Shown in pieces: positions 2,287 to 21,769 of a stretch of 22,432 nucleotides of DNA. The notes under the pieces are model-generated. The model was given only the letters and a program-made list of their open reading frames with translations, was not told the DNA's origin and did no database searches. The position numbers and the translations under genes were made by a program. The number at the start of each line of letters is the position of its first letter. Positions within the stretch are counted from its first letter, which is position 1. The DNA comes from a virus: positions 1 to 22,432 of the IMG/VR virus record IMGVR_UViG_3300031999_000214; one strand, given 5' to 3'.

Positions 2287-3141
2287 ATGACCAAAATGAA
2301 TAAAGTCTTGAGCCCGTCTGCTGCAGCTGCCAGGCAGAACCTGATCAATTCCATGAATATGATCATACAGTCGCTCAAGCGTAGGGACAGGAAGGAACCT
2401 GGCTGGAGGGAAAAGGAAAAGGCTGAAGAGCGCATGGCTGCTATATTTCAGCCGATATTTGACCGCCAGGCACGCCTAATCCGAGCTCGTCTCCAGAAAC
2501 TCGATAAGACCAGGCCTAAGGAACCGAAGTCGATGACCGTGAAGATACTGCCAATAGATATATTTGAAGACCTGGACCTGACCGATGCCGAGGATAATGC
2601 GATCCGGAACGAGCTATTCAACTCTGTTTATAATGGAGTTAGCCTGTTCCAGGATGAGACAGGATATATTCTGGATATTGGCTTGATTAATAAAGAAGCT
2701 CATAGCTGGGCCTTGAATTATTCAGGTAAATTGATTAAAGAAATAAGCGAGACTACCAGGCAGATTGTAAGGGAAGCTGTCAGCGATTTCGTGGCCACGC
2801 CTGGAATGACGATAGCAGACGCAATGGGGAGAATGCCGTTCGATCCGCAGCGATCACAAACTATAGCGGTGACGGAGATTACCAGGTCTTATGCACAAGG
2901 TAACCAGATCGCCGGCGAAGTGATGAAGGATCAATTCCCGGATGTGGCGGTTGTGAAAGTATTTTTCACAAATAATGATGATCTGGTGTGCGAATTTTGT
3001 GGTCCAATGAATGGACAGGAAGTAGCACTTGACGATCAATTCGAGGATGATGACGGAAATGCATATGACAATCCGCCAATTCATCCTGCATGCCGGTGCT
3101 GGACACAAACAACGACTGATATTCTGAAGGAAAAACCATGA
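2287..3141 (+). CDS. Minor head morphogenesis protein (SPP1 gp7 / Mu gpF-like)
   Basis: A 284-residue protein of the phage Mu F-like minor head family. These proteins bind the portal, enter the prohead with it and help assembly and DNA delivery. The C-terminal third carries the family signature: ITRSYAQGNQIAGE, then C235-x2-C238-GPMNGQ, then H266-P-A-C269-R-C271-W, a probable metal-binding Cys/His cluster. The N-terminal part is helical and basic (residues 1-80), typical for the portal-interacting region. The start at 2287 has an AGGGG ribosome site 11 bases upstream. The stop overlaps the next gene as ATGA. This assignment implies that the portal gene lies upstream of the window. Confidence 0.88.
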   Translation: MTKMNKVLSPSAAAARQNLINSMNMIIQSLKRRDRKEPGWREKEKAEERMAAIFQPIFDRQARLIRARLQKLDKTRPKEPKSMTVKILPIDIFEDLDLTDAEDNAIRNELFNSVYNGVSLFQDETGYILDIGLINKEAHSWALNYSGKLIKEISETTRQIVREAVSDFVATPGMTIADAMGRMPFDPQRSQTIAVTEITRSYAQGNQIAGEVMKDQFPDVAVVKVFFTNNDDLVCEFCGPMNGQEVALDDQFEDDDGNAYDNPPIHPACRCWTQTTTDILKEKP

Positions 3142-3608
3142 GCGGATTTCTAATTCAAGTCAAAGGGCTCGATAAGGTGCTCAAGGGAATAAACGAAATT
3201 GCGGATCCTAGGCACGTCGGTATTTACCTGGCGAAGGCTGGTCAAGAGGCTGCAAGTAAAATTCTTCAGACCAAAGGTCTGCAATCTTATCCGCCTGAAA
3301 CTGAAGCGAATCTACCACCGGTCCCTTATTACATCCGTGGACGTGGAACTGAGACCGCCCTGGGAAACCTGAATGATTCGGAGCGCCTTGGAACGAAATT
3401 CTATATTGACAGGGATGTGAGTAATTACATAACCAAGGTAGGAAACACAGCGTTGTATGCTGATGACGTGGTAGGCGATAACCAGAAGGAATTATTTGGT
3501 ATCATTGGCTGGCGTAAGCTCCGAGAAGTAGCCGAGGAAAGAATAGACCTTATAAGCCAAATTTATGATGCCTGGATTGCGAAAATGATAAAGGACCTTG
3601 GATTATGA
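3138..3608 (+). CDS. HK97 gp10-like head-tail / tail completion protein
   Basis: A 156-residue protein overlapping the minor head gene by four bases (ATGA). Visible features are an N-terminal strand-helix (GFLIQVKGLDKVLKGINE), an amphipathic helix, then YPPETEANLPPVPYYIRGRGTET and SERLGTKFYI, and a C-terminal helix ending in WIAKMIKDLGL. I recognise the PPPPYYIRGRG...SERLGxxWY pattern from phage proteins placed between minor head and capsid genes and often labelled HK97-gp10-like or virion morphogenesis proteins. The likely role is neck or tail completion. Its position ahead of the capsid gene, rather than after the connector, makes the exact role uncertain. Confidence 0.6.
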   Translation: MSGFLIQVKGLDKVLKGINEIADPRHVGIYLAKAGQEAASKILQTKGLQSYPPETEANLPPVPYYIRGRGTETALGNLNDSERLGTKFYIDRDVSNYITKVGNTALYADDVVGDNQKELFGIIGWRKLREVAEERIDLISQIYDAWIAKMIKDLGL

Positions 3609-3639
3609 TAGAACCGATGGCAGTCATTCTGAATTAGGT

Positions 3640-3669
3640 CTGCCAAAATAATAAAAGGTATGTTATACT
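3640..3669 (+). promoter_or_regulatory. Candidate extended -10 promoter for the pre-capsid RNA
   Basis: An extended -10 element TG-T-TATACT lies at 3661-3669, with a weak -35 (CTGCCA, 3640-3645, 18-base spacing). The predicted start, about 3676, is the first base of a perfect hairpin. The element lies in the 207-base gene-free stretch between the gp10-like and capsid genes. Confidence 0.5.
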
Positions 3670-3675
3670 ATTTCT

Positions 3676-3796
3676 GCTTGACAGGATAGCTCAACAGATC
3701 CCTGGTGGAGTTGAGCGAAAAGGTCAAGCGGAACTAAGCGCATAAAGAGTCAGTAGACTAGCGCAGCGACAGGAAACTGTCAGCTGCGCTTTTTTG
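3676..3796 (+). ncRNA. Candidate structured leader / small RNA ahead of the capsid gene
   Basis: The predicted transcript begins with two stacked perfect 7-bp stems: GCTTGAC (3676-3682) with GTCAAGC (3723-3729), and inside it GCTCAAC (3689-3695) with GTTGAGC (3710-3716). They are separated by a 6/6 internal loop and capped by a 14-base loop. A short AGTC/GACT hairpin follows near 3749, then the terminator hairpin. The region has no convincing ORF. The segment AAGCGC (3736-3741) could pair with GCGCTT (3786-3791) in the terminator, a possible weak antiterminator. It matches no riboswitch class that I recognise. It may be a free RNA of about 120 nt or an attenuator controlling capsid expression. 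Confidence 0.5.
3760..3796 (+). terminator. Strong intrinsic terminator just before the capsid gene
   Basis: AGCGCAGC-GACAG (3760-3772), a GAAA loop, then CTGTC-A-GCTGCGCT (3777-3790) form a 13-bp stem with one bulged A, followed by a run of six T (3790-3795). The capsid gene's GGAGG ribosome site (3803-3807) lies only a few bases downstream, with no room for another promoter. Capsid transcription therefore has to read through this terminator. Confidence 0.85.
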
Positions 3797-3815
3797 TTTA
3801 TCGGAGGAAAAAAGT

Positions 3816-5720
3816 ATGAGCGATGAATTAGACGAATTGAAAATTGGAGCTCGGCATAGCACCGAAGACCAAACAGCCCTGCAGAATATTCACGATGCAG
3901 CGATAACCCTGGGTGCTGCTTGTCCGGACCCGACCAGGTATGAGCTCCCAAAGTCCCTGACCGATGATATGCTGGTGAACTTTGGGGATCCGGCCGTCAA
4001 GGTCCTAAGCAACGAAGGAACGAAGACCAAGGTTGGTGGTTACCTGATCCGATTTACAACCCCGGAGGATCCGGACCTTGAAGGTGATTATTTTGACAAG
4101 GAAACGGATTACGTGATGGAATTCCCTGGGAAAAGTATTACATGGTTCAATCACAGGCTGCCAGTAGAAACAAGCGATGGAAAAAAAGCAGTCCTGAAGC
4201 GCAGGCTGAGCGATGCAGAACTGAGCGTCGACGACATCGGCGTATTCATGGCCGGAGTTTTAGACGAAAGCGACGCCTACGAGAAATTCCTGGCTGACCT
4301 GGCTCGTGCAGGGAAGCTGGGACTGTCGAGCGGAACCGCTCGTCACCTGGTCGAAAGCACACCCCAAAAGAACGGAATTAATCACATCGATCTATGGCCA
4401 ATCGGCCTGGATGCAAGCTACACCCACGCTCCTGCAGAGTCAAGGAACCGTGTGGTAGCGCTCAAAAGTTTATTACCAGACGAGGACGAAGCTGAGAGCA
4501 GCGTCGCTGCTGCGGAGTCAAGCCTGGAGATCAAAACAGTAATCAACCCAAATTTGAAAATAGGAGAAATTGAAATGGACGAAAAAGAACTGAACGCAGT
4601 ATTAGACGCTCGTGACGCTGCTCGGAAGGCTGAGGACGAAGCGAAAGCAACCAAAGCGGCCGAGCTCAAAGCAGCTGAAGACGCAGGCTATCAGAAGGGC
4701 CTCGAGCAAATGAAAAACCTGAAACGTGGTGGCTATGCCTATCACAAGGTTTCAGAGTCGACCGAAGGTGAAGACGAAGAGGTCAAGTCATTCCTGCATT
4801 GGATCAAGACCGGTGATGAAGTCCCGTACAAAGCAGCCATGCAGGGCCAAACCGACTCAGAAGGTGGGTATGCGGTGCCGGATGATTTTCATAACCAGAT
4901 CGTGGCCAAGCGGAACGAAGCATCCGTGCCAGACATGATCGGAGTCCAGCGCTTCTCAACAAACCTGGACAAGTATCCAGTGCCGGTCGAAGCAACCGCA
5001 GCGACTAAATTCGTCGTGGCAGCTGAAGAAGTCGCTTATGACGAGAACGAGCCGACCCTGGGCCAGGTCGCTATCACCATTCACAAGATGACCAAACTGA
5101 TCAAGATTTCAGAAGAGCTCGAAGCCGATGCTCAAGCGAACTTCGGTGGATACCTGGCTGGTGTTTGGGGCAGGGCCATGGCAGCTGCAGATAACTATTA
5201 CTACGTCGTGACAGGCACCGGAACCGGTATGCCTCAAGCGATGGCAGTCGGCGGAGCGCTTGGTAAGACCTTCGCAAACGCTGCATCAATCGTGGCAGCT
5301 GATATTCATGCCCTGATCCATGCGATGCCGGACCCGTACGTCGAAGGTATGGTATTGATCACGAGCAGAGCAATCCTCGGCCTGGTCCGTGCACTTTTGG
5401 TAGCAACCCCCTATGCCTTCATCGATTGGATCGGTGGAAACAAGATCGATCCGGCCCAAGTCAGCCCATCAGGGACCATCGGCGGAGTACCGGTCTTCAC
5501 GACCAATGCCATGCCGACCGCGGTGCCGGTCGTAACCGGAACGAAGACATGGTTACTCGTCAATCCAAGCTTCTATGGGATTGCAGAGCGTGAAGGAATG
5601 ACCGTCTCCAGGAACCCGTACCTGTACCAGGCCAATGGACAGATCGGGCTCTTCGCCAAGTATCGTGCAGGCGGAGCGGTTCTTCAGAGCGAAGCCGTTC
5701 TATGGGGAATCCAGGCCTAA
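3816..5720 (+). CDS. Prohead protease-major capsid protein fusion (HK97 fold)
   Basis: A 634-residue polyprotein. Residues 1-40 are a short conserved module (GARHS...IHDAAITLGAAC). Residues 70-220 resemble HK97-type prohead proteases (S78/U35 class), with a likely catalytic His113 in TWFNH and Ser171 or Ser172 in GLSSGT. Residues 254-305 are a charged helical, delta/scaffold-like region rich in Ala, Glu and Lys. From about 340 the HK97-fold capsid begins (SEGGYAVPDDFHNQIV; a C-terminal VSRNPYLYQ...FAKYRAGGAVLQSEAV). Protease, scaffold and shell are thus one chain; family members are usually separate genes or protease-scaffold fusions. GGAGG lies upstream of the ATG. An internal start (see 4575) would release capsid protein alone. 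The expected product is the icosahedral shell after proteolytic removal of the N-terminal parts. Confidence 0.9.
   Translation: MSDELDELKIGARHSTEDQTALQNIHDAAITLGAACPDPTRYELPKSLTDDMLVNFGDPAVKVLSNEGTKTKVGGYLIRFTTPEDPDLEGDYFDKETDYVMEFPGKSITWFNHRLPVETSDGKKAVLKRRLSDAELSVDDIGVFMAGVLDESDAYEKFLADLARAGKLGLSSGTARHLVESTPQKNGINHIDLWPIGLDASYTHAPAESRNRVVALKSLLPDEDEAESSVAAAESSLEIKTVINPNLKIGEIEMDEKELNAVLDARDAARKAEDEAKATKAAELKAAEDAGYQKGLEQMKNLKRGGYAYHKVSESTEGEDEEVKSFLHWIKTGDEVPYKAAMQGQTDSEGGYAVPDDFHNQIVAKRNEASVPDMIGVQRFSTNLDKYPVPVEATAATKFVVAAEEVAYDENEPTLGQVAITIHKMTKLIKISEELEADAQANFGGYLAGVWGRAMAAADNYYYVVTGTGTGMPQAMAVGGALGKTFANAASIVAADIHALIHAMPDPYVEGMVLITSRAILGLVRALLVATPYAFIDWIGGNKIDPAQVSPSGTIGGVPVFTTNAMPTAVPVVTGTKTWLLVNPSFYGIAEREGMTVSRNPYLYQANGQIGLFAKYRAGGAVLQSEAVLWGIQA
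4562..4577 (+). promoter_or_regulatory. Internal ribosome binding site and in-frame start inside the protease-capsid ORF
   Basis: AGGAGA (4562-4567) stands 7 bases before an in-frame ATG (4575-4577, Met254). It has the same form as the AGGAGAAAT-type sites that start the tail-tube genes at 7580 and 8392. It falls exactly at the junction between the protease domain and the helical scaffold segment. Confidence 0.65.
4575..5720 (+). CDS. Free major capsid protein from internal initiation (alternative product)
   Basis: Starting at Met254 gives a 381-residue protein: helical delta-like segment, then the HK97-fold shell domain. That is close to the size of a normal HK97 capsid precursor. It shares frame and stop with the 634-residue fusion. 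Abundant free capsid with a minority of protease fusion would give the stoichiometry a prohead needs. This is inferred from the ribosome site and domain boundary only. Confidence 0.5.
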   Translation: MDEKELNAVLDARDAARKAEDEAKATKAAELKAAEDAGYQKGLEQMKNLKRGGYAYHKVSESTEGEDEEVKSFLHWIKTGDEVPYKAAMQGQTDSEGGYAVPDDFHNQIVAKRNEASVPDMIGVQRFSTNLDKYPVPVEATAATKFVVAAEEVAYDENEPTLGQVAITIHKMTKLIKISEELEADAQANFGGYLAGVWGRAMAAADNYYYVVTGTGTGMPQAMAVGGALGKTFANAASIVAADIHALIHAMPDPYVEGMVLITSRAILGLVRALLVATPYAFIDWIGGNKIDPAQVSPSGTIGGVPVFTTNAMPTAVPVVTGTKTWLLVNPSFYGIAEREGMTVSRNPYLYQANGQIGLFAKYRAGGAVLQSEAVLWGIQA

Positions 5721-17183: not shown

Positions 17184-17211
17184 TTGACAATTAGTAAACT
17201 TTGTATATAAT
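17184..17211 (+). promoter_or_regulatory. Rightward early promoter, consensus sigma-70
   Basis: TTGACA (17184-17189), a 16-base spacer and TATAAT (17206-17211): both hexamers are perfect. The predicted start is near 17218. It drives the RHH gene and the early operon and lies within the divergent repressor control region. Confidence 0.88.
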
Positions 17212-21061: not shown

Positions 21062-21769
21062 ATGAAATACTATAAGGTTCTGAGAGACGGTCATTCGTGT
21101 GTTGGTAGCAAGATGGACTGGACGAAATACCTGCCGGTGGATGGGCAGCCAGGGAAATGGACACGGAAGATTGGTGGTGAGTTGGAGTTATGTAAGAAAG
21201 GCTATCATCTGACTGACGAAAGCCATCTGATTGATTGGATAAATGGCAACCAGTTATTCGAGGCTGAGGCTGATGGTGAAGTCTTGCAAGGGGATAACAA
21301 GGTATGCTGCCGCCGGGTAAGACTATTGCGCCAGGTTGAAGGGTGGAATGATAGAACGCTGAGGTTGTTTGCGGTCTGGTGTGCGCGTGAGGCTTTGAAA
21401 CTTGTCAAGAAACCAGACCCGCGCAGTATTTACGCTTGTGACGTTGCCGAGAAATATGCGAATGGGCAGGCGACTAAAGAGGAGTTGGATGCCGCCTGGG
21501 ATGCCGCCAGGGCTGCCGCCAGGGCTGCCGCCAGGGATGCCGCCTGGGATGCCGCCAGGGCTGCCGCCTGGGCTGCCGCCTGGGATGCCGCCAGGGATGC
21601 CGCCTGGGCTGCCGCCTGGGATGCCGCCTGGGATGCCGCCTGGGATGCCGCCAGGGATGCCTCCTGGGATGCCGCCAGGGCTGCCGCCTGGGATGCCGCC
21701 AGGGATGCCGCCTGGGATGCCGCCTGGGCTGCACAGAATAAGAAGTTATTGGAAATGATCGGGGAGTAG
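21062..21769 (+). CDS. DUF7666-like phage protein with Ala-Trp/Arg-Asp repeat tail
   Basis: A 235-residue protein. Residues 1-140 resemble the small phage domain often annotated DUF7666 ([14 protein letters not shown] ... [12 protein letters not shown] ... [25 protein letters not shown]). Residues about 144-223 are 20 tandem tetrapeptides AA[W/R][D/A], predicted to form one long helix with Trp and Arg/Asp stripes. The extreme C-terminus is [11 protein letters not shown]. Similar Ala-rich repeat tails occur in phage proteins of unknown function, sometimes called putative immunity proteins. No catalytic motif is evident. The DNA encoding the tail is a near-perfect 12-bp repeat and should be slippage-prone. 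Confidence 0.7.
21491..21730 (+). repeat. 12-bp tandem repeat, 20 units
   Basis: The unit is GCCGCC[T/A]GGG[A/C]T. Only two positions vary, switching Trp/Arg and Asp/Ala, apart from one TCC (unit 15). Period 12 bp, 240 bp in total, no indels. The array is free of stops in several frames on both strands, which explains the extra open frames there. Confidence 0.95.

Follow-up and report, generated by a model that had tools for sequence, protein, structure and literature searches.

The RNA leader at the 5′ end of the capsid transcript in a temperate phage is probably a cis-acting transcription attenuator, in which stabilization of two hairpins would allow read-through into the major capsid gene. 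The leader combines a promoter at a conserved position, two covarying hairpins (I and II), and an intrinsic terminator that is by sequence mutually exclusive with hairpin II, all placed before the capsid ribosome-binding site (RBS). The same leader recurs in roughly nine other lineages, all of uncultured phages, and 13 sequences were aligned. To our knowledge, phage structural genes have few known structured cis-regulatory RNAs; this leader covaries strongly, implies a switch that is clear and open to test, and defines a new RNA family.

The window—the whole stretch of DNA analyzed, a 22.4-kb virus record—belongs to a temperate phage whose genes are of the long-tailed (siphovirus) type. Beyond the genes in Table 1, it encodes a tape measure, a Gp37-like tail protein, a serine integrase, a Cro/C1-type repressor, RecT, and a ParB-like protein. 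The capsid gene matches Pfam Phage_capsid (2.8e-32) and the phrog_10 major head protein family (3.2e-38); the N-terminal part of its product is termed protease-like from its position and gave no protein-family match. The 156-aa gene and the capsid gene are separated by 207 gene-free bases, which hold, in order, an extended −10 element, a strongly folded region, the 13-bp terminator hairpin and its six T, GGAGG, and the capsid ATG. As the preliminary description had it, the capsid ribosome site lies directly behind the terminator: The six T end at 3795, ahead of GGAGG (3803–3807) and the ATG at 3816.

Table 1. Coordinates of the capsid leader and neighboring genes in the window
Feature	Position	Strand	Details
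MuF-like head protein	2287–3141		
156-aa gene	3138–3608		Directly upstream of the gene-free leader stretch
Weak −35-like hexamer CTGCCA	3640–3645	+	18-nt spacer; 9/12
Extended −10 element TGTTATACT	3661–3669	+	Predicted start about 3675–3677
Hairpin I	3672–3733	+	P1 3672–3682/3723–3733; P2 3689–3695/3710–3716; short P3 3699–3701/3707–3709
Internal-loop strand AGGAUA of hairpin I	3683–3688	+	A[AG]GA[TC][AG] in 12/13, AGGATA in 8
Internal-loop strand GAAAAG of hairpin I	3717–3722	+	7/13 (once within AGAAAAG), rest close variants
Hairpin II (antiterminator)	3738–3764	+	P5 3738–3741/3761–3764; P4 3748–3751/3756–3759
Linker AUAAAG of hairpin II	3742–3747	+	
Loop AGUA of hairpin II	3752–3755	+	
Intrinsic terminator	3760–3795	+	Arms 3760–3772/3777–3790, 13 bp, A3782 bulged; six T 3790–3795
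Shine-Dalgarno GGAGG of capsid gene	3803–3807	+	Sequence
HK97-type major capsid protein, putative protease-like N-terminal part fused	3816–5720	+	634 aa

Elsewhere in the window, a perfect consensus promoter (TTGACA-16-TATAAT, 17184–17211) separates the repressor gene from the early genes. The protein encoded at 89–1966 carries many (N/Q)DAYSTSQ(V/T)D(T/A)V repeats followed by a charged DERDRxL repeat; it occupies the expected portal/terminase place before MuF and has no informative family match. The protein at 21062–21766 contains an extended series of nearly identical Ala/Trp/Asp/Arg repeats (AAWDAAR...), with weak Pfam matches to DUF7666 and Imm5_like.

A capsid-protein search returned four uncultured phage contigs with the leader, their capsids sharing 99% (L002), 96% (L003), 53% (L005), and 52% (L006) identity with that of the window. 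The leaders of L106/L107, L147, and L163 were recognized by their layout after a scan with the 156-aa gene. A covariance model (R1) built on a hand alignment of eight leaders—with N padding to preserve columns and one bulged U of L163 omitted—recovered L130 blind (E = 0.004). The rebuilt model (R2) was run against 71 loci retrieved by way of the protein segment immediately downstream and found L214/L215 (5e-5), L244 (1e-3), L254 with five identical copies (4e-3), and L236 (4.5e-3); all remaining matches in this set had E > 0.8. The blind finds thus comprise five sequences in four lineages (L130, L214, L244, L254, and L236), with lineages judged by eye throughout (window/L002/L003; L005; L006; L106/L107; L147; L163; L130; L214; L244/L254; L236). 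The E-values are rough (shortened calibrations), and the relatives are all uncultured, with partial contigs. Position nevertheless supports the blind finds: Each is preceded by an extended −10 and followed, 26–30 nt downstream, by a hairpin with a T-tract. Searches with the exact inner-stem pattern and two degenerate patterns matched only lineages already known. Cultured phages yielded no close relative, with capsid matches of ~30% identity over half the protein and no match to the upstream 156-aa gene, and scans of bacterial genomes yielded no relative.

The element is single-copy in each of the ten contigs checked, and most copies lie just upstream of a protease-capsid gene. In L236, whose capsid type differs from that of the window, and in L130, it adjoins the RBS of that gene. 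Two ORFs of 70 and 262 aa, the latter resembling a methyltransferase, part the L130 element from the upstream gene, and the element therefore goes with the capsid side. In L254, a 373-aa ORF, by its sequence apparently a glycosyltransferase, intervenes between element and capsid, and an RBS and start codon right after the terminator were not found in L214, L244, or L254. The relatives have a hairpin and T-tract 3′ of the core, the T-tract being degenerate in L005 and L254.

Gene boundaries flanking the leader vary within the window's own subclade. A small ORF separates the 156-aa gene from the leader in L002 and L003, of which only a remnant is left in the window (3608–3640). L002 also encodes an additional ~85-aa N-terminal domain (2737–3000), in frame with the capsid protein. 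The window (3796–3816) and L003 are without this domain, and the common sequence restarts directly after the terminator, which suggests recombination or deletion at the leader.

Taken by itself, the promoter does not exceed chance: 31 extended −10 sites like TGTTATACT were found where 33 were expected. Conservation carries the assignment. An extended −10 lies upstream of the core in 13/13 aligned sequences, including the five blind finds, and starts 15–59 nt from it; the −35 region TCTGCCAAAATAA recurs in L003. The TG-T-TATACT promoter that had been proposed ahead of the stems is thereby supported, with the start site itself a prediction. A separate [GA]AATA box, often AACTGAATA or CGAATAG, stands at a nearly fixed distance of 9–12 nt upstream of the P1 core in 8/8 aligned members outside the window's subclade (L106, L147, L163, L130, L214, L244, L254, and L236). 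Many other capsid leaders, among them L145, L151, L007, L023, L167, and L213, also have it close to where transcription is predicted to begin; the window, L002, L003, L005, and L006 are without it. The box may be contacted as a single strand or may act as a pause element.

Positions 3670–3800 of the window fold with an energy of −55.8 kcal/mol (z = −5.5), a value matched by 0/200 dinucleotide shuffles. The preliminary description saw two stacked perfect 7-bp stems here. Both stems stand, as the 7-bp core of P1 (3676–3682/3723–3729, within an outer stem of 11 bp) and the 7-bp P2; "stacked" was loose, since a 6×6-nt purine-rich internal loop sets them apart. The 13-bp terminator with six T that it described is likewise present, although a simple terminator scanner did not list it, probably owing to the bulged A3782. 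Across the family, P1 of hairpin I reaches up to 13 bp, sometimes interrupted, and is followed by the 6×6 loop (5′-AGGAUA/5′-GAAAAG), a P2 of 4–7 bp that is reduced in the most divergent members, commonly an AGAG bulge, and then P3. Hairpin II consists of a 4-bp P5, a linker AUA..AG (4–6 nt), a P4 of 3–4 bp, and a loop that is mostly [A/U]GUA, with usually one A or G preceding the 3′ strand of P5. In the window it reads 5′-GCGC-AUAAAG-AGUC-AGUA-GACU-A-GCGC.

These helices covary strongly among the 13 sequences. Compensatory change among homologous loci had been named at the outset as the test of the stems, and it was passed strongly, with changes on both sides at 16/19 base pairs. Double-change cells numbered 65 versus 21.9 in shuffles, standard pairs filled 90.7% of cells versus 64.5% (slid controls ≤36.5%), and the covariation score was 0.729 versus 0.242 (slid controls ≤0.106). 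Because the alignment was built with knowledge of the structure, these figures are biased in its favor; the slid controls and the blind finds limit this concern. Compensatory changes affect 6/7 core pairs of P1 and 4/4 pairs of P2. In hairpin II, P5 is 100% and P4 92% paired, with double changes at 4/4 pairs of P4 and 2/4 pairs of P5, which is mostly GCGC. Hairpin II alone is no more stable than shuffles, and the case for it therefore rests on covariation.

The terminator 5′ arm and hairpin II have positions 3761–3764 in common. An attenuator was among the options first proposed for this leader, with AAGCGC at 3736 competing for the terminator 3′ arm. The hexamer is present (3736–3741), and in the window it, like the overlapping linker stretch AGCGCA, could pair with the 3′ arm; across the relatives, however, evolution has retained the 5′ arm as its partner: GCGC at 3738–3741 pairs with 3761–3764, forming hairpin II. 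The linkers of L106 (GCAC) and L163 (ACGC) match the 5′ arm only, and the 3′-arm match of L005 is out of register; pairing of the linker with the 3′ arm was therefore rejected as the switch. Two lineages show concerted change of the linker and both terminator arms (linker/5′ arm/3′ arm: GCGC/GCGC/GCGC in the window, GCAC/GUGC/GCAC in L005, and ACGC/GCGU/ACGC in L163), so that both the terminator and hairpin II are preserved. The attenuator thus emerges as the best supported of the original options, with linker and 5′ arm in place of linker and 3′ arm. Leader-peptide attenuation was a further candidate, since the window and L002 have short in-frame codons spanning GAAAAGG; by eye, L003, L005, and L147 have no conserved start, Shine-Dalgarno sequence, or frame, and it was rejected.

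Folding of nascent prefixes gives hairpins I and II in 7/9 members (the window, L002, L003, L005, L106, L163, and L130), another prefix fold being slightly better in the model for L006 and L147. The full-length leader is predicted to fold to the terminator, structures with P5 forced being 7–20 kcal/mol worse. In these models, hairpin II has the anatomy of an antiterminator: first to form on the nascent RNA, weak, and mutually exclusive with the terminator.

This anatomy suggests how the attenuator would work. A host-type promoter would start the transcript, whose first ~95 nt would fold, while emerging, into hairpins I and II. Base-pair covariation shows that hairpin II sequesters the first four bases of the terminator 5′ arm. 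By default, judging from predicted energies, the longer terminator hairpin would displace the weak hairpin II, transcription would stop at ~3795, and the capsid gene would be off or low. Were a factor or RNA polymerase to grip hairpins I and II, the terminator base beside the U-tract could not close, and polymerase would read through into the capsid gene. The stabilizer might be a phage factor, a host factor, or the polymerase, with the conserved internal loop of hairpin I as the obvious putative contact site. That capsid expression depends on read-through, one of two alternatives in the preliminary description, is supported by conservation. Such control could set when, or how much, capsid is made late in infection and keep head genes silent in the lysogen; a temperate phage would have its structural genes silent there although the promoter resembles the host housekeeping type.

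The same promoter and terminator could instead frame a free-standing small RNA of ~120 nt, trans-acting or structural, with the capsid expressed from upstream late transcripts. A promoter and terminator framing a stable, highly conserved RNA, and a single copy per contig, are compatible with that reading, which we nevertheless regard as improbable: It leaves unexplained both a conserved hairpin incompatible with the terminator and the placement before the RBSs of different capsid lineages. An RNA of ~120 nt would in any case be the termination product.

The leader belongs to a new RNA family with a known kind of mechanism, and we claim membership in none of the systems compared below. Rfam 15, searched at gathering and relaxed thresholds, gave no family, only weak chance matches (sroD at 20.8 bits versus a gathering threshold of 50), in keeping with the initial impression of an unrecognized RNA class. 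The open-access literature contained no description of such a capsid-leader element (subscription papers lay mostly outside this scope). The missing Rfam match also bears on a small-molecule riboswitch with hairpin I as the aptamer. A purine-rich internal loop that is conserved inside a covarying stem, with an antiterminator/terminator switch behind it, would suit one; the aptamer would be small, however, and no known ligand logic applies to a capsid gene, which makes this reading scarcely credible.

Two of the closest known systems are protein-dependent antiterminators. ANTAR leaders (nasF, amiE, and eut) carry tandem P1/P2 stem-loops behind a promoter, the second being an antiterminator that overlaps the proximal strand of the intrinsic terminator (PMC3369936). 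The capsid leader resembles them in that the second of its two tandem hairpins overlaps the terminator 5′ strand. It differs in its placement in phage capsid leaders, in having conserved internal loops instead, and in hairpin II loops that are mostly tetraloops ([A/U]GUA) without the A1/G4 signature. The loops are AGUA, UGUA, GGAA, UAUA, AGCA, GGUA, GAUUA, GACUAA, and AGACAAAC, and none of them is a 6-nt loop with A1 and G4. ANTAR-domain proteins were found in 0/10 partial contigs, a search in which control genomes gave no match either. The RAT element of BglG/LicT-SacY systems is a short hairpin with an asymmetric internal loop that overlaps the terminator 5′ arm. Overlap of antiterminator and terminator is common to both designs, but the capsid leader is a two-hairpin element, and a CAT_RBD protein was absent from the ten partial contigs (the control was positive in four genomes).

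HK022 putL, ~70 nt with two stem-loops just downstream of PL, needs no dedicated protein (PMC9378689). By analogy, hairpins I and II could bind polymerase without a protein, so that this and later terminators would be ignored. The leader is likewise of phage origin and promoter-proximal, its two adjacent hairpins have internal loops or bulges as in putL, and polymerase could make contact through its conserved internal loops. Here, however, hairpin II shares bases with the terminator, an overlap that put does not need, and the element precedes the capsid rather than early genes. R1 had no match up to E = 10 in the 14-kb HK022 early region, where put is unannotated and its presence assumed, and put was thus rejected as a homologue. 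A purely constitutive put element would moreover give no control. Put-like processive antitermination, another of the original options, is unlikely. A broader proposition is a little less doubtful, though still unlikely: a widespread and undescribed class of phage RNA controlling capsid expression on its own, its paired hairpins contacting polymerase or sensing a ligand, which would give protein-free antitermination of late genes in a lineage far from lambdoid phages.

Lambdoid PR′-tR′ control is comparable in layout: a host-type promoter, a short leader, an intrinsic terminator, and then late genes (PMC6606751). The capsid unit has the same order, and many relatives retain that order with other leaders, as would be expected if a Q-like phage protein engaged polymerase at the promoter and suppressed the terminator, the RNA folds being incidental. 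Incidental folds would not covary, whereas this leader RNA does and contains an antiterminator. Neither a Q-family protein nor any other recognizable antiterminator was present among the window proteins scanned from this incomplete record, and known antiterminator proteins were not found in the contigs scanned. We consider control of the PR′-tR′ type highly improbable.

The attenuator reading applies to one leader design among several. A promoter–leader–terminator unit occupies the same place with a different leader in L007, L011, L023, L047, L111, L114, L117, L124, and L136, and further in L149, L155, L156, L158, L167, L169, L208, L213, L227, and others; most other capsid relatives tested have no such unit by the same rule. 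As a group, the other leaders show nascent pairing with the terminator 5′ arm no higher than shuffles. Antiterminators in all capsid leaders of the group are thus unsupported, and we claim one only for the two-hairpin family. The data suggest that phages of this group place capsid synthesis under conditional termination rather than a late promoter alone. Since relatives carry other RNA designs at the same gene position, regulated termination before the capsid may be a general strategy overlooked by annotation.

Two of the other leaders contain an unrelated, putative antiterminator hairpin (GAACGUC-AGAG-stem-GGCGUUC) before the capsid gene, at 3157–3300 in L145 and 3172–3320 in L151. Its 3′ strand is again the terminator 5′ arm, a parallel that favors the attenuator reading. 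A TATTCAG near the RBS is complementary to the 5′ CTGAATA.
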